From Microcaldota archaeon (lineage in GTDB: Archaea > Micrarchaeota > Micrarchaeia > Micrarchaeales > CABMGC01): a stretch of DNA of 61,465 nucleotides. The stretch covers positions 1-61,465 of the forward strand of contig JAGWGW010000005.1 of the NCBI GenBank assembly GCA_028867135.1, given 5' to 3'. The notes under the pieces were generated by a model. The model saw nothing but the letters and a program-made list of their open reading frames with translations, did no database searches and was not told where the DNA came from. Position numbers and translations under genes: made by a program. Within the stretch, counting starts at the first letter, position 1, and every line of letters starts with the position of its first letter. Below are positions 51,629 through 61,370 of the stretch, one piece after another.

Positions 51629-51871
51629 ATGGACTTCCAATATGCCACGCATGCAGAGGAGAAAATATCAGAGAGGCATATTGATAGGCATCTAATAGAA
51701 GAAACTGTCTTAAGCCCGGATAAAATACTAACCTCATCATCCGGTAGGAAAATTGCCCAAAAGATTATAGCGCATAAGTTGCTCAGGGTTGTTTACGAAG
51801 AGAAAGAAGGAGTTTATATAGTCATAACGGCATATTATACTAAAACTGAAAGATATCGGCGATGGCAATGA
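51629..51871 (+). CDS. DUF4258-like protein (candidate toxin)
   Basis: An 80-residue basic protein resembling DUF4258: TPHAEEKISERHI-like opening (here YATHAEEKISERHID), then DKILTSSSGRKIAQKII and VVYEEKEGVYIVITAYYTKTERY, a short beta-strand arrangement like RelE/ParE-type toxins. It is directly coupled to a DUF2283 gene (ATGA overlap); these two families are often adjacent in archaea and bacteria and are suspected toxin-antitoxin pairs. Toxicity is inference only. The mRNA is probably leaderless. Confidence 0.75.
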   Translation: MDFQYATHAEEKISERHIDRHLIEETVLSPDKILTSSSGRKIAQKIIAHKLLRVVYEEKEGVYIVITAYYTKTERYRRWQ

Positions 51872-52077
51872 AGATTACTTACGATGAAAAGGCCGATGCG
51901 GCAAATATAGTATTTCAAAAGGGCAAATATCACATAAGCAAAGAAATAGGGGAAGGCGTAATTGTAGACTATACCAAGGACGGCAAAATAATAAGCATAG
52001 AGATTCTAAACGTATCAAAGAGAGTTCCCACAAAAAGCCTCAAACATATAACGAGCGTAAGTATAGCTTCAGCATAG
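51868..52077 (+). CDS. DUF2283 family protein (candidate antitoxin or partner)
   Basis: A 69-residue DUF2283 protein: MKITYDEKADAANIVFQKGKYHISKEI, VIVDYTKDGKIISIEILNVSKR. The domain is small, beta-rich and has no known catalytic site. ATG 51868 overlaps the upstream TGA as ATGA; ATG 51862 would give two more residues. It is the second gene of a two-gene unit with the DUF4258-like gene. Confidence 0.85.
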   Translation: MKITYDEKADAANIVFQKGKYHISKEIGEGVIVDYTKDGKIISIEILNVSKRVPTKSLKHITSVSIASA

Positions 52078-52314: not shown

Positions 52315-53157
52315 ATGTCAGCACCGTATTTGATGCCCATCATAGCGCTCGGGATAGTGGCAGTCGTTGTAGTTGTAGGCATATTCGTAGCCGGCTCATC
52401 GAACAACGCCTCTTCAGCGGCTCTTCCTGCGATGCCAAAGACAGGCCAGCCTGTGCCCGAAAGCATGGCAGGCATCACATCAGGCACTCCGCAGCAGGCA
52501 TCCGCAACATTATCGCAGCTTGCTCAGGCAGGCGCAGCCAACTTCAGCCAGTTCAAGGCGAGCTACTCCGGCTCCATCAGCATAGTCCCGAGCGGCATAC
52601 TGGGCGCCATCGCATCTGTCAATTCGCCATTGTACCTTAACGAATACGGCACAGGAGCTTCGGAGCGCATGGACATCAATGCAAGCAGCATGCCCGTGGT
52701 GGGCAGGGCGTTGGTGACATATCTCAATACAACCCGCAACACCTATGTATGCGACAACCTTAACGCGAGCGCGATGTCCCAGGGCAAGGTCCTTGACATA
52801 CTTACCGGATCCCGCGAGCTTACATGCTCAAGCAACGACACGCTTCTCGCGCCGCGGCTGAGGGGGCTGTACAACCTCAACCTTTCAATGCTGTCCCAGT
52901 TCGGCATAGCTATAAGCTACGACCAGGTTTACCAGAGCGAATACAACGGGTCGCCATGCACGTATGTCCACGGCATGCTATCCGGCCTGAACGGAAGCGG
53001 AGAGCTCGGCATGTGCATCCTTGACAGCAACTACATCCCTGCAACTATAGCTGCCCGCTTCTCGAACAGCAATGCGCATCTCTTCCTTGTGCTCAACGAA
53101 ACATACATAGGAAACGGCACAGCGTTCCCGGGATCCCTTCCAGGCCCGTTGACCTAG
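52315..53157 (+). CDS. Membrane-anchored extracellular protein of unknown function
   Basis: A 280-residue protein with one N-terminal helix (LMPIIALGIVAVVVVVGIFVAG) and an external domain with four Cys (CDNLN, ELTCSS, SPCTYV, GMCILD) that could form two disulfides, plus N-x-S/T sites. I do not recognise the fold. The A/Q-rich stretch at about 55-80 looks like a linker. It starts 70 nt after tRNA-Gly and its stop overlaps the convergent CAP gene by 4 bp. Confidence 0.7.
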   Translation: MSAPYLMPIIALGIVAVVVVVGIFVAGSSNNASSAALPAMPKTGQPVPESMAGITSGTPQQASATLSQLAQAGAANFSQFKASYSGSISIVPSGILGAIASVNSPLYLNEYGTGASERMDINASSMPVVGRALVTYLNTTRNTYVCDNLNASAMSQGKVLDILTGSRELTCSSNDTLLAPRLRGLYNLNLSMLSQFGIAISYDQVYQSEYNGSPCTYVHGMLSGLNGSGELGMCILDSNYIPATIAARFSNSNAHLFLVLNETYIGNGTAFPGSLPGPLT

Positions 53158-54215
53158 ACGTTCGTGGGCTGATACTCGTTGCCACTGCTGTCTATAAAGA
53201 TGGTATAGGTCGAGCCTATGAAACCGCTTCCTGTGCTGGTATTGTTCAGCCATACCTCCACCGTGTACTCCCCTGCGCCGTACTGGCGCATGACATCGCC
53301 CATGTCAAACGATATCGAAAAGCCGTTGCCGTTGACCATGTAGCTGCCAGCCACGATGGTCTTTATGTTCTGGTAGTACTCGAGGCTGCTTCTCACAACC
53401 CCTGCAACAGTATTGCCATAGCTGTAGGACTTTGTGCTTGAGAGCTGGCCCACGGTCATGTTCGATGCGGGGGCGTCGTAGCCTATCTCCACTCCTGACA
53501 GCCTGTATCCGTTCTGCACGTTCCCCCTGAGGGAGACCTTGCCGCCTGCAGAGCTCGGGCTTCCGGAATCCCAGTTTATGTAGTTGTCTATGAAGTCCTC
53601 GGTAAAGTATATCGTAGACGAATTGTACGCTATGCCTATGGCAACCTGGTTATGGTTAGGGTCTAGGATATTGTTCCTGTGGCCGTTGTTGCAGCATGCT
53701 GAATCGTTGTACATCATGCTGTACTCCATGTCGTACAGCGCCTTGGTGTAGTTTATGCTGCCCTTAGTGTAGCACACAATTATGCACGCCCTGTAGGCCT
53801 GCTCCTCGTACGCGATGTTCTCGCTTACGGCTCCCCTGCCTCCAAGGAGCGTATACCTCATGTACGGCTTCATGCCATAGGTGTCCCAGTGGCTGAAATA
53901 GCCGTACCTGAGCATGCTGTCCGAATGCTGCTGGCCCGAGCTCTCGCTGGACAGCGTCACATTCTGCAGGCCGAACGAGTTCCTGTCCTTGTTTATCAAC
54001 GAGAGCGCATACGCGTATAGCTGGCCGTTGGGCGCGGTGCCGTTCGGCGAAATTGTGGAGACTGTCTGGTAGGTAGAATAGCTGTTGTTGCCCTGCTGGA
54101 GGCCGCTGAGGAATGGGAGCTGCACGTCCCATGCCCTCAGCATTATTATCACGGCAAACGCTATGAAGCAGAGCGCTATCAATGACAGCAGGCCCTGCAG
54201 CGAAGACGAAGCCAT
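53154..54215 (-). CDS. CAP (SCP/PR-1) domain membrane-anchored protein
   Basis: A 353-residue protein with an N-terminal helix (LLSLIALCFIAFAVIIML) and an external CAP domain of about 150 residues: LINKDRNSFGLQNVTLSSES, QQHSDSMLRYGYFSHWDTYG, SENIAY and GHRNNILDPNHNQVAIGIAY, with the His/Glu/His residues of the CAP cavity. The final 130 residues are a second beta-rich domain. Four Cys (CIIVC, SACC) suggest disulfides. I chose ATG 54215 because the helix follows at once and a minus-strand TATTTAGG-type box (around 54244-54253) fits; ATG 54269 lies upstream of that transcription start. Confidence 0.87.
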   Translation of the reverse strand: MASSSLQGLLSLIALCFIAFAVIIMLRAWDVQLPFLSGLQQGNNSYSTYQTVSTISPNGTAPNGQLYAYALSLINKDRNSFGLQNVTLSSESSGQQHSDSMLRYGYFSHWDTYGMKPYMRYTLLGGRGAVSENIAYEEQAYRACIIVCYTKGSINYTKALYDMEYSMMYNDSACCNNGHRNNILDPNHNQVAIGIAYNSSTIYFTEDFIDNYINWDSGSPSSAGGKVSLRGNVQNGYRLSGVEIGYDAPASNMTVGQLSSTKSYSYGNTVAGVVRSSLEYYQNIKTIVAGSYMVNGNGFSISFDMGDVMRQYGAGEYTVEVWLNNTSTGSGFIGSTYTIFIDSSGNEYQPTNV

Positions 54216-54334
54216 GGAAACACAATATGCATTTGATGCCCCTAAATAAAAGGATGACTGAAAAACCAAAATATATGAAACTCTTTATTAAAATTAAATC
54301 GTATTTAGGTTTGGAGAATCTTGAGGGTGGGCAA

Positions 54335-54463
54335 ATGGCCAAGAAACCTGAATCCGAGAAAGAGGAGGACTCTGCAGAAGAGGAGGAAGAGGAGGTCGAA
54401 GAGGAAACTGAGGAGGCCGATCAGGCCGAGAGCGACACGTGGTTCGGTGACCTGGCGTTCTAG
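54335..54463 (+). CDS. Small highly acidic protein
   Basis: A 42-residue protein: MAKKPESEKE, then a long Glu tract, ending in the aromatic patch DTWFGDLAF. It has its own signals: TATA-like CTTTATTA (54283-54290), a leader of about 20 nt and a good ribosome site GAGGGTGG 5 nt before ATG 54335. I rejected earlier in-frame ATGs (from 54182) because they lie before the promoter or inside the CAP gene. An acidic tail ending in a hydrophobic patch suggests a protein-binding tail or chaperone-like role, but this is open. It overlaps the convergent nucleotidyltransferase by 4 bp. Confidence 0.65.
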   Translation: MAKKPESEKEEDSAEEEEEEVEEETEEADQAESDTWFGDLAF

Positions 54464-55335
54464 GCAGTCCTCTGCCCCTGCGCCATCCCCTGCACCCTCT
54501 TCGCAACTGCCTCGAGCTCCCTTATGCTCCTGTTCCTATCCGTGATGTTGTCTATCGAGTACCACGGGCTTGAGAATACGTAGCCGTAGAGCCTGCCCTG
54601 GCTGACCAGCTTCGGGAAGAGGCTGTGTTCCAGCATCTGCCTTCCTTGACTCTGCCTTATGTAGTCGAATACAGAGGTTCCGAACACGTAAATGCCGGCG
54701 TTGACCAGGTGCGCCTCCCTATCGCTCTCCCCCTTTTCGATAAAGCTGGTTATCCTGTTGCCTTCGAGCCTCGTCACCCCGAAATGCGACTTTGCGCTCG
54801 CTGGGGTTATGGCAATTGTTGCAATGGCCTTCGTGCTGGTGTGCTGGTTGTACATCTCGTTCATGTCCATCCTGAATATATGGTCCCCGTTCAGGGCGAA
54901 GAATGGCGAGTTGCCCACAAAGCCCTTCACAAGCAGCAGCGCGCCCTCGGTTCCCTTCTGCGCATCCTCCATGATGTACCTTATCTTGACCCCGAATGCT
55001 CCGCCGTCGCCGAAATGCTCGACTATGCTGTTGCTCTCCCTGCCTATCGCGAGCAGTATCTCCGTTATCCTGTTCCTCTTAAGCTCGTTTATTATGTACC
55101 ACAGGATGGGCTTGCCGCTCACCATCACCATCGGCGAGACCACGGCCCTCCCGTTCAGGCTTATCGGGTTGCCTCCTGCGAATATCAGCACCTTCCTCGG
55201 CGCGTTGTAGCCCAGCGCAATGCCGAGGTAGCGCTCTATGGCGTGGCTCCTGTTCCTTATGTTGACCCCGTCCACGCCCTCGTCGATGAGCGAGAGCATG
55301 TTCTCGTCAAGCGTTATTGTAAGCCTCTCCTTCAC
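54460..55335 (-). CDS. Sugar nucleotidyltransferase fused to an N-terminal RHH DNA-binding domain
   Basis: A 291-residue fusion. Residues 1-43 (RLTITLDENMLSLIDEGVDG...RNRSHAIERYLG) are a ribbon-helix-helix DNA-binding motif. From about 48 on is a nucleotide-sugar pyrophosphorylase-like domain (KVLIFAGGNPISLNG, GKPILWYIINELKRNRITEILLAI, FFALNGDHIF as the D-x-D/H region, SFIEKGE, LVNAGIYVF). The usual opening loop G-G-x-G-T-R-L is replaced by AGGNPISLNGR, so catalysis may be altered. GTG 55335 is the start. It is divergent from a cupin gene across tandem repeats that could be its own operator. Confidence 0.85.
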   Translation of the reverse strand: MKERLTITLDENMLSLIDEGVDGVNIRNRSHAIERYLGIALGYNAPRKVLIFAGGNPISLNGRAVVSPMVMVSGKPILWYIINELKRNRITEILLAIGRESNSIVEHFGDGGAFGVKIRYIMEDAQKGTEGALLLVKGFVGNSPFFALNGDHIFRMDMNEMYNQHTSTKAIATIAITPASAKSHFGVTRLEGNRITSFIEKGESDREAHLVNAGIYVFGTSVFDYIRQSQGRQMLEHSLFPKLVSQGRLYGYVFSSPWYSIDNITDRNRSIRELEAVAKRVQGMAQGQRTA

Positions 55336-55364
55336 GCGCTCATCCTACTACCTAAATGAGCAGG

Positions 55365-55413
55365 AAGGTATATATAATATGATGAAATAATATAAGGTAT
55401 GATAAGGTATGAT
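55365..55413. repeat. Tandem AAGGTATGAT repeats in a divergent promoter
   Basis: Two exact contiguous copies of AAGGTATGAT (55394-55403 and 55404-55413) and a partial copy AAGGTATATA (55365-55374), all in one orientation. They interlock with the TATA elements of both divergent genes (ATATATAATAT for the minus gene, AATAATATAA for the plus gene). RHH proteins often bind short direct repeats, so this is a candidate operator. Confidence 0.55.
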
Positions 55414-55447
55414 GATAACAGGAGCTGAAAATTCGAGGGTGGGGAAG

Positions 55448-56305
55448 ATGATACCTGCGAAGAAGCTGATAGAGGATGGCAAGGAGCTGAAGGCGGTGCT
55501 GGCGCAGGCCAAAAGGCCGATAGCAGTCAGCCACGAAGAGATAGGCTCCGAAAGATGGACCTACAGGACGAGGATGCTCATGTTCTCCGTACACCGGATC
55601 GAGAACGGAACGCATTCGGGCGTGCAGGAGCACGACGGCCTGATGTTCGCGCTCTCGCATGAGAAGATGGACATATCTTACAGGAGCCGCAGGAAGGAAT
55701 CCAGGGTCGACAACGTCAGCGCAGTAGTGATTCCGAAGGGCGTGGAGTACGAGCTAAGCCACAAAGCGCCGCTTTATACTGCAAGGGTTAGCGCCAGGGG
55801 ATGGGATAGGGTGACAGAACCGGTTGGATACAGCCCTGCAAACATTGACAGGCACCTACAAAGCGGGAACGCCTACAAGTTTGTCGTGCCAAAGCACGTG
55901 AACGGCGAAGTGCTGGCAAAGGGTGGTGAATTCGTTGGGGAGCACCATGAGAAGCACATCGTGTTAGGGCCGTCCAACCAGGAATTCTCAGTAGGCAATT
56001 CCCTCTCCCCGCAGGACTTCCATGTCCACATGAAGACAACCGAGATCTTCGTAACGTTCAGCGGCATAGAGGTCTATTACTTCGCAAGAGGGGGGCTCGA
56101 AACTATGTACGTAGCAGCGGGCAGCGTGCTCATAGTACCAAAGGGAGTGCCGCACTTCACCGTCATGCGGAACGAGAAGCCGAGCTTCGTGGTAAAGGGC
56201 AGCGACGCCTCCATAATCGACGACAATTTCAGGCTGCCCGATGACGCTGTGGAAAGAACAGGCCTATCCCAAAGCGCGCTATCCTACCTTCTGAGGAACG
56301 AGTGA
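55448..56305 (+). CDS. Cupin-domain protein
   Basis: A 285-residue protein whose C-terminal half is a cupin barrel: QDFHVHMKTTEIFVTFSGIEVYYF, then GSVLIVPKGVPHFTV, with His-x-His-x(5)-Glu and a late His as metal ligands. The N-terminal half (EHDGLMFALSHEKMDISY... VVIPKGVEYEL) looks like a second, degenerate barrel, making this a bicupin. The role may be sugar-phosphate isomerisation or binding, given the divergent nucleotidyltransferase, but this is inference. I set the start at ATG 55448 with GAGGGTGGGG upstream; ATG 55409 sits before the predicted transcription start. Confidence 0.8.
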   Translation: MIPAKKLIEDGKELKAVLAQAKRPIAVSHEEIGSERWTYRTRMLMFSVHRIENGTHSGVQEHDGLMFALSHEKMDISYRSRRKESRVDNVSAVVIPKGVEYELSHKAPLYTARVSARGWDRVTEPVGYSPANIDRHLQSGNAYKFVVPKHVNGEVLAKGGEFVGEHHEKHIVLGPSNQEFSVGNSLSPQDFHVHMKTTEIFVTFSGIEVYYFARGGLETMYVAAGSVLIVPKGVPHFTVMRNEKPSFVVKGSDASIIDDNFRLPDDAVERTGLSQSALSYLLRNE

Positions 56306-56309
56306 ATAT

Positions 56310-56822
56310 ATGGCAAAGCCCGGCACGTATTCGATATGGATTGTCCCGGGCAAGGGGATGAAGGGCAGGCTCTACAGACGCATCAAGGAGCTGAGCGGCA
56401 TGCACAACGCCACTCCGTTCGAGCCGCACCTGACGCTCGTTAAAGACATCAAAATGGGCGAGAGTGAAGCGGTTGAGAGGACCAAGGGGCTCGCCGGGTC
56501 CCTGGGAAGCTTCGCTGTAAAGCTGGGCAGACCATCCTCTTCGCAGAGCTATTTCAAATCCGTATTCATAAAAGTCAGGAAGACTGGGGAGCTTTACCGT
56601 GCATACAGGCAGGCATCCGAGGCATTCGGCCTCAAGAGCAACATGTACAGGCCGCACATAAGCCTGATCTACGCAAGCCTGCCCGCCTCGAAAAGGAGGA
56701 GCATAGTGAAAGGGCTCAAGGCAAAAGAGCTGGGCGGCAGCTTCGTTGCTGACAACCTGCATCTCCATCGGACAGAGGGCGGGGTCGAGGGCTGGAGATG
56801 CGTCTTCAAGGCCCGCGTGTAG
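56310..56822 (+). CDS. 2H phosphoesterase superfamily protein
   Basis: A 170-residue protein with the two H-x-[TS] motifs of 2H phosphoesterases, PHLTLV and PHISLIY, about 95 residues apart, as in cyclic phosphodiesterase and RNA ligase-like 2',5' enzymes. The substrate may be a 2',3'-cyclic or ADP-ribose cyclic phosphate. It follows the cupin gene by 4 nt and is co-transcribed. A basic C-terminus is present. Confidence 0.88.
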   Translation: MAKPGTYSIWIVPGKGMKGRLYRRIKELSGMHNATPFEPHLTLVKDIKMGESEAVERTKGLAGSLGSFAVKLGRPSSSQSYFKSVFIKVRKTGELYRAYRQASEAFGLKSNMYRPHISLIYASLPASKRRSIVKGLKAKELGGSFVADNLHLHRTEGGVEGWRCVFKARV

Positions 56823-56931: not shown

Positions 56932-57594
56932 ATGGCAACCACATGCCCGCAGTGCGGCGCGAAGAATAGCAACGCCGCAACGTCGTGCAGGATATGCGAC
57001 AGCAAACTCGACGGAGTTGTTGGCCGCAAGCCGACCCACTACAAGTCAGCCTTTGGCTTCGTGTTGCTAGTAGCGGCATTGGGGGTATTCGTGCTATGGT
57101 ATCCTACCGTGATCAAGGTCGGGATGATCCTCGCATCGAACGCGATACGCATAATGCAGAATCCGAACAGCTTCAGTCCGGCAAATACTCCGCAGCCAAA
57201 TGCTACCACAGCCCCCACAACAGCCGATTCGTCCACATCAAGCTCCACCATGAGCTCAACCTCGTCCACTGCGCCTTCGTCATCAACATCCAGCCTTGCG
57301 TCCTCGTCAACCTCGGTATATAGCTCATTGACATCGACCCGCAACACCTCCACAGTCACCTCCACGGTCACCTCGATCCCGACGTCGTCCACATCAGTGA
57401 CATCGACGATCTCCTCCACAACGTCATCGTCTACCTCCACATCCACTGCGCCGACGACGAGCACGATCTCCACCTCAACATCAACCAGTGCCTCCACATC
57501 AACGCCTACAAGCGCATCTACATCCGCATCCACTTCGCTGTCGAGCACGACCAGCACCACCTCAAGCACCTCAACAATAAGCACCACAGTGTAA
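56932..57594 (+). CDS. Zinc-ribbon membrane protein with Ser/Thr-rich tail
   Basis: A 220-residue protein. Residues 1-27 form a zinc ribbon (CPQCGAKN ... CRICDSKL, C-x2-C...C-x2-C), next comes a basic segment and one transmembrane helix (FGFVLLVAALGVFVLWY), and the last 130-150 residues are Ser/Thr-only low complexity (SSTMSSTSST type). The likely topology is ribbon inside, mucin-like tail outside. TATA-like TCTAATAAT (56897-56905) is 27-30 nt before ATG 56932; an earlier TTG at 56905 would overlap it. The role is unknown. Confidence 0.75.
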   Translation: MATTCPQCGAKNSNAATSCRICDSKLDGVVGRKPTHYKSAFGFVLLVAALGVFVLWYPTVIKVGMILASNAIRIMQNPNSFSPANTPQPNATTAPTTADSSTSSSTMSSTSSTAPSSSTSSLASSSTSVYSSLTSTRNTSTVTSTVTSIPTSSTSVTSTISSTTSSSTSTSTAPTTSTISTSTSTSASTSTPTSASTSASTSLSSTTSTTSSTSTISTTV

Positions 57595-60719: not shown

Positions 60720-61370
60720 ATGGCTGAACAAACCGACCTTGAAGGTCAATCAAAAGCAAGGAAGGACAGGGCTGTCGAAGTCCTGAATAGCAGAGTGCCG
60801 CAGGTAGTCAATGCGACTACCTATCTTATCCCATCCACAGATGGCACTACCCAATACAAGGTAAGGCACGTAGATGCCTATTCTTGCACATGCCCTGACT
60901 TTACGAATAGGTGCAAAGAGAAGGGACTTTACTGCAAACATATCCATGCCATCATCCTCTTTAACAAGCTAAAGAACAAGGTAGAGCTTGACGACTTTGA
61001 CGTTGATAGCATAACAGAGGAAAAGACCTGTCCTGAATGCAAGAGCGACAAACTGCAAAAATATGGAATGAGAAGGAACAAATCTGGTTCTAAGCAAAGG
61101 CACATGTGCCTGAATTGTGGTGCTACTTTTGTCCTTGACCCTGCAAAAGGGATTAAAGGTAATGCACGTATCCTATGCCTTGCTCTTGATATGTATTACA
61201 AAGGCAATTCTCTAAGAGATATACAGAATACACTTTGGCAGAGCTTTGGCTTGAAGCTACACCACGAAACGATAAGACGCTGGAATAATAGGTTCATGGG
61301 TAAGATAAATGATTATACCGCTACCTTGAAGCCACGAATAACCTTATCCCTCTCCCTGAATGTGCCATGA
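60720..61370 (+). pseudogene. Transposase N-terminal part (SWIM plus InsA-like zinc ribbon plus HTH), catalytic part missing
   Basis: A 216-residue frame. Residues about 50-85 form a SWIM zinc finger (CTCPDFTNRCKEKGLYCKHIH), residues 102-140 an InsA-like zinc ribbon (CPECKSDKLQKYG...CLNCGATF), and residues 150-195 a helix-turn-helix (NSLRDIQNTLWQSFGLKLHHETIRRW), the layout of IS6-like archaeal transposases. It breaks after DYTATLKP, just where the DDE catalytic core should begin; the last 11 residues are unrelated. The catalytic Asp residues are absent, so this copy cannot be active by itself. Confidence 0.8.

Follow-up and report, generated by a model that had tools for sequence, protein, structure and literature searches.

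A ribbon-helix-helix protein fused to a probable pseudo-nucleotidyltransferase in Micrarchaeota and its predicted phased operator

INTRODUCTION

PutA carries a ribbon-helix-helix (RHH) domain N terminal to an active proline-catabolic enzyme, works through a redox switch, and regulates a divergent promoter. In the ROK repressors (sugar kinase fold) and in NadR (nucleotidyltransferase fold), an enzyme fold joined to a DNA-binding domain serves as a metabolite sensor. In the RHH protein NikR, the residues of an R-x-T-x-T strand are, we take it, those that touch DNA. The operator of Escherichia coli NikR is GTATGA-N16-TCATAC (PMC7055735), and the enterobacterial NikR consensus is GTATGAT-N13/14-ATCATAC (PMC545781). 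A dead enzyme fold that serves as a product sensor is found in GMPPA, an inactive paralogue of GDP-mannose pyrophosphorylase (PMC11228364).

We analyzed a window of 61,465 nucleotides from a Microcaldota archaeon (contig JAGWGW010000005.1), which contains a gene joining an RHH domain to a nucleotidyltransferase (NTase) fold. To our knowledge, almost nothing is known of gene regulation in DPANN archaea. The fused protein resembles NikR in its RHH head, its R-x-T-x-T strand, and the half-site GTATGA/TCATAC, but it has an NTP_transferase fold where NikR has a nickel-binding C-terminal domain, its predicted sites repeat directly every 10 bp and not as an inverted pair about 16 bp apart, and its candidate targets in relatives are sugar related. 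It shares with PutA an RHH domain at the N terminus of a metabolic enzyme fold and a divergent promoter, whereas PutA is an active enzyme with a redox switch and the catalytic loop of the fused protein is gone. The joining of an enzyme fold to a DNA-binding domain recalls the ROK repressors and NadR, although both of these are helix-turn-helix proteins and the NadR enzyme is unrelated to sugar pyrophosphorylases. As with GMPPA, a catalytically dead pyrophosphorylase fold would be the sensor, but GMPPA lacks a DNA-binding domain and exerts its effect on an enzyme partner. A literature search, in which coverage of subscription papers was mostly lacking, found no description of an RHH-NTase fusion, and the protein looks like a kind of sugar-metabolism regulator that has not been described before.

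RESULTS AND DISCUSSION

The features of the locus are listed in Table 1. We consider the start of the fusion gene to be called correctly because orthologues have a methionine at the same residue. Full-length relatives with 30 to 80% identity occur across Micrarchaeota.

Table 1. Coordinates of the fusion gene, its domains, the divergent promoter region, and the neighboring genes
Feature	Position	Strand	Remarks
RHH-probable pseudo-nucleotidyltransferase fusion gene	54460..55335	-	291 aa, GTG start
RHH domain, codons 1-45	55201..55335	-	NikR profile match and AlphaFold secondary structure
NTP_transferase, sugar-nucleotide pyrophosphorylase fold, codons 47-266	54538..55197	-	Pfam, AlphaFold model, Foldseek
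Degenerate catalytic glycine loop AGGNPISLNGRAVVSP, codons 53-68	55132..55179	-	GxGTR lost
Putative operator, tandem AAGGTATGAT copies	55394-55403 and 55404-55413	.	Half-sites GTATGA at 55397-55402 and 55407-55412
Third in-phase half-site TATGA	55378..55382	.	Read from sequence; 20 bp from first copy
TATATATAATA, likely TATA element common to the divergent promoter	55369..55379	.	Inspection only
Divergent bicupin gene	55409 (or 55448)..56305	+	Family c1; H..H retained in second cupin
CPDase-like 2H phosphoesterase	56310..56822	+	Pfam CPDase 2e-13; both H-x-S/T motifs conserved

The N terminus had been read as an RHH domain in an earlier note made from the DNA letters, and this reading was borne out and had even been understated. 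Searched as a single sequence, the protein matched Pfam RHH_1 at residues 4 to 37 with 17.1 bits (E = 0.0055), which is below the cutoff. A profile of 38 orthologous N termini, searched against the PDB, matched E. coli NikR (1q5v) at positions 2 to 46 with an E value of 1.2e-9, and the doubt raised by the subthreshold match is therefore gone. After E. coli NikR, the same profile matched another NikR, an antitoxin, and CopG (0.014 for CopG). RHH_1 was matched singly in 35 of 42 fused members at a lenient threshold (E ≤ 1), the best at 9.7e-7. The AlphaFold model, built on 42 aligned homologues (pLDDT, 88.7), has helices at residues 11 to 20 and 29 to 40, as in RHH proteins, and an extended stretch ahead of them; the strand of the domain is R4-x-T6-x-T8. 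The RHH turn (N/R-R-S-x-A-I) is kept, with R29 and S30 invariant among fused proteins. The sequence profile thus recovers the strand-helix-helix with its conserved turn that marks the RHH (MetJ/Arc/CopG/NikR) factors, and the N termini of homologues are RHH by this profile, with AlphaFold helices that fit. A Foldseek search with the isolated 50-aa RHH monomer gave no useful match, as would be expected if the domain is stable only as a dimer, and we relied on the sequence profile in its place.

The full-length fusion was found in many lineages when 301 Micrarchaeota genomes were searched. The RHH profile matched 52 of 296 Micrarchaeota genomes, and the matches always head a frame of 246 to 417 aa, save for a few weak matches to probable NikR-type proteins and frames that were broken or at contig edges. 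By our own count from these matches, the fusion is present in about 48 of the 296 genomes, and an AU test of a single origin gave a P value of 0.41; the homologues are from metagenome-assembled genomes, and the counts and P values here and below ignore shared descent. A contig scan for the fusion returned two matches, both from Micrarchaeota.

The remainder of the protein, previously described as an NTase with an altered glycine loop, matched NTP_transferase (PF00483) with a Pfam E value of 2.6e-33 over residues 47 to 266, approximately. Foldseek matched the model to 3hl3 at an E value of 2e-20 and also to GDP-mannose pyrophosphorylases. AGGNPISLNGRAVVSP stands where the glycine loop GGxGTRL..P(K)P is expected, and the GxG(T/K)R phosphate loop was present in none of 42 fused proteins versus all of 33 unfused paralogues (P = 5e-22). 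The source genome also encodes another NTase (G000:C4:6969-7646). Pocket residues were tentatively matched to contacts with the base, the metal, the sugar, and the phosphate on what we take to be general for RmlA-type enzymes. At these positions, G128 and D151 are invariant among fused proteins, and G214 (95%), K201 (90%), and E200 (79%) are largely kept; D151, present throughout, corresponds to the first metal-binding Asp of pyrophosphorylases. In the region of the second metal-binding Asp, W258 is conserved and D262 is present in about 43% of members; at residue 67, the lysine of the PKP motif, this protein has Ser, and just 62% of members have Lys. With this variation, the domain may bind a ligand less well or differently. 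Since GxGTR is gone in all fused proteins while most ligand-binding positions persist, the NTase domain is probably a pseudo-enzyme.

We think it probable, on the evidence of sequence comparison, that the protein is a one-component transcription factor that regulates its own gene and uses its dead NTase domain to sense a sugar nucleotide or a sugar phosphate. The C-terminal domain would descend from an NDP-sugar pyrophosphorylase that lost its phosphate-binding loop and kept most of its pocket. We infer a ligand and an allosteric link to the head: the domain, which would no longer turn over its ligand, would register how much of a sugar nucleotide or a sugar phosphate is present and alter affinity for DNA, and sugar-phosphate and sugar-nucleotide metabolism would thereby be adjusted to supply. 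The term sugar-nucleotide-sensing would here draw on the retained pocket residues and on the genes that carry the site in other genomes. The combination put forward in the earlier note, in which the altered NTase is the sensor for an RHH head and the repeats serve self-regulation, is supported at the level of sequence.

A DNA-binding autoregulator could also use its NTase domain as a mere scaffold for dimerization or protein interaction, for example by contacting an active NTase paralogue, and sense nothing. Active paralogues do adjoin the fused gene or share its cluster in five loci (L034, L036, L041, L049, and L098), and the catalytically dead GMPPA partners GMPPB (PMC11228364). However, GMPPA itself binds GDP-mannose, so the scaffold and sensor roles are not exclusive, and key pocket positions of the fused proteins are conserved at 70 to 100%; we consider a pure scaffold unlikely. 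A bifunctional enzyme-repressor of the PutA or NadR kind, which still makes NDP-sugar while also regulating transcription, would account for the intact overall fold and for D151, G128, and K201. Its probability is low, given a loop that all unfused paralogues have and all fused proteins lack, and given the Ser at residue 67.

The dead-sensor reading also makes a prediction for the head, which would dimerize and read GTATGA/TCATAC half-sites repeated every 10 bp, one dimer per half-site, with adjacent dimers stacked at one helix turn on the same face of the DNA. The exact tandem copies that had been noticed between the fusion and bicupin genes were confirmed. AAGGTATGAT occurs exactly twice, in tandem, where 0.08 copies are expected, and none of 100 shuffles had two; the 961-kb genome has the exact pair TCATACNNNNTCATAC at a single place, the fusion-gene promoter. 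By itself the repeat would be a small curiosity, and what lifts it far above chance is its in-register conservation upstream of orthologues. TCATAC-N4-TCATAC, with at most one mismatch and within 200 bp, lies upstream of 24 of 44 fused genes (0.04 expected from dinucleotide shuffles). Upstream of the same 44 genes, the spacing of TCATA was 10 bp 27 times, 20 bp 13 times, and 30 bp 8 times, with hardly any other spacing and with controls of at most 0.15; the motif was counted in the very upstream regions that had first suggested it, and the controls were shuffles and nonfusion genomes. A reversed-pattern control was set aside as not independent, CATACT being part of the true consensus TCATACT as well; its place was taken by dinucleotide shuffles and by genomes in which no fusion was detected.

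When sites overlapping the start codon are counted in, 25 of 42 aligned fused loci have a site. The other 17, including operon-internal copies (L080 to L084) and clades with Ser at strand position 6, have no clear site. The site was present in 25 of 36 loci with Thr or Ala at strand residue 6 versus none of 6 with Ser (P = 0.002, with rows related by descent). Its place and orientation vary among loci, from overlap with the start codon to −149. Orthologues thus keep the repeats at exact 10-bp phasing and with the half-site of NikR, and short repeated half-sites in the factor's own promoter are what is expected of an RHH factor. The repeats are very probably the operator of the fused protein, and the comparisons strongly support recognition of DNA by it; we infer that it actually binds there. 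Repression is the likelier mode of control because the position of the operators relative to the start codon and the TATA element varies, as it does for repressor sites. That the TCATAC repeats are instead operators of another factor or a promoter element, with the fused protein binding elsewhere or being no regulator, is very improbable: several relatives do encode another RHH protein (133 to 159 aa, possibly NikR) that could read the same half-site, but the source genome has no RHH_1 match besides the fused protein, the sites change with strand residue 6, and their variable place and orientation are unlike those of a core promoter element.

In the source genome, the fused protein as an autoregulator would bind its own divergent promoter and so control itself and a bicupin-phosphoesterase operon. 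The autoregulatory placement is supported by the position of the repeats. For the bicupin gene, a start at 55448 is more likely than one at 55409 on the basis of the ribosome-binding site, and the phosphoesterase apparently shares its operon. The fused gene has a linked relative of the bicupin in 11 loci, one of the phosphoesterase in 8, and a ROK-family sugar kinase nearby in four; the bicupin is a probable coregulated target. Profile searches of the cupin against the PDB gave only weak matches, such as a cupin-type phosphoglucose isomerase at an E value of 0.016, and we therefore claim no function for the bicupin. A wider regulon was sought in the source genome and not found, the two sites with one mismatch both being inside open reading frames (ORFs).

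Further exact sites in other genomes were inside ORFs in 5 of 18 cases where the fusion is present, the remaining 13 being intergenic, versus 21 of 27 where no fusion was detected (P = 0.002). Eight of nine promoter-like extra sites in the other fusion genomes precede sugar or central carbon genes. In two genomes such a site precedes a bifunctional phosphoglucose/phosphomannose isomerase (PGI/PMI), and in two it lies between a phosphomannomutase/phosphoglucomutase (PMM/PGM) and an opposed sugar nucleotidyltransferase. Others precede the FBPase gene glpX with an aldolase-like gene, GAPDH with PGK, a dihydrolipoyl dehydrogenase gene, and glycosyltransferases; we named PGK and the remaining pyruvate dehydrogenase subunits by eye, and the gene calls of neighbors are mechanical. 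In one genome that is 62% complete and in which the fusion was not detected (G140), a site lies between a cupin-phosphoesterase pair and an NTase-isomerase operon. With sites before gluconeogenic and sugar-activation genes, which the sequences support as targets in relatives, the protein may be a wider sugar regulator there.

We see an even balance for and against the broadest form of this proposal, a phylum-wide new family of archaeal regulators that uses a dead pyrophosphorylase as an RHH ligand sensor, recognizes the half-site of NikR in a new arrangement of phased direct repeats, and in ultrasmall archaea acts as master regulator of the metabolism of sugar phosphates and sugar nucleotides. 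For a DPANN archaeon, a protein, a predicted operator, a strand residue predicted to set specificity, and candidate target genes are all in hand. The protein would be a further case of an enzyme fold turned metabolite sensor, parallel to the ROK repressors and GMPPA, and one half-site would be common to two very different RHH proteins.

Several other features were seen in passing. A TCATAC pair precedes a gene resembling that for the RuBisCO large chain (L143, on G099:C73), in a genome whose fused gene has no upstream site. In the window, a very acidic 42-aa ORF at 54336-54463 (MAKKPESEKEEDSAEEEEEE...WFGDLAF) lies on the strand opposite the fused gene and ends where the 3′ end of that gene is reached. 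A CAP/SCP-domain protein with an N-terminal membrane segment is encoded at 53154-54269 (Pfam CAP, 1.8e-7), and a relative of it also comes after the fused gene in another genome (G119). Two small adjacent ORFs of 80 and 71 aa at 51629-52077 resemble a DUF4258/DUF2283 pair, which we take to be of the toxin-antitoxin type. At 56934-57594, a zinc ribbon and a membrane segment are followed by a long Ser/Thr-rich stretch, and near the end of the window, at 60720-61370, a SWIM-like zinc finger is joined to a transposase-like zinc-ribbon region.
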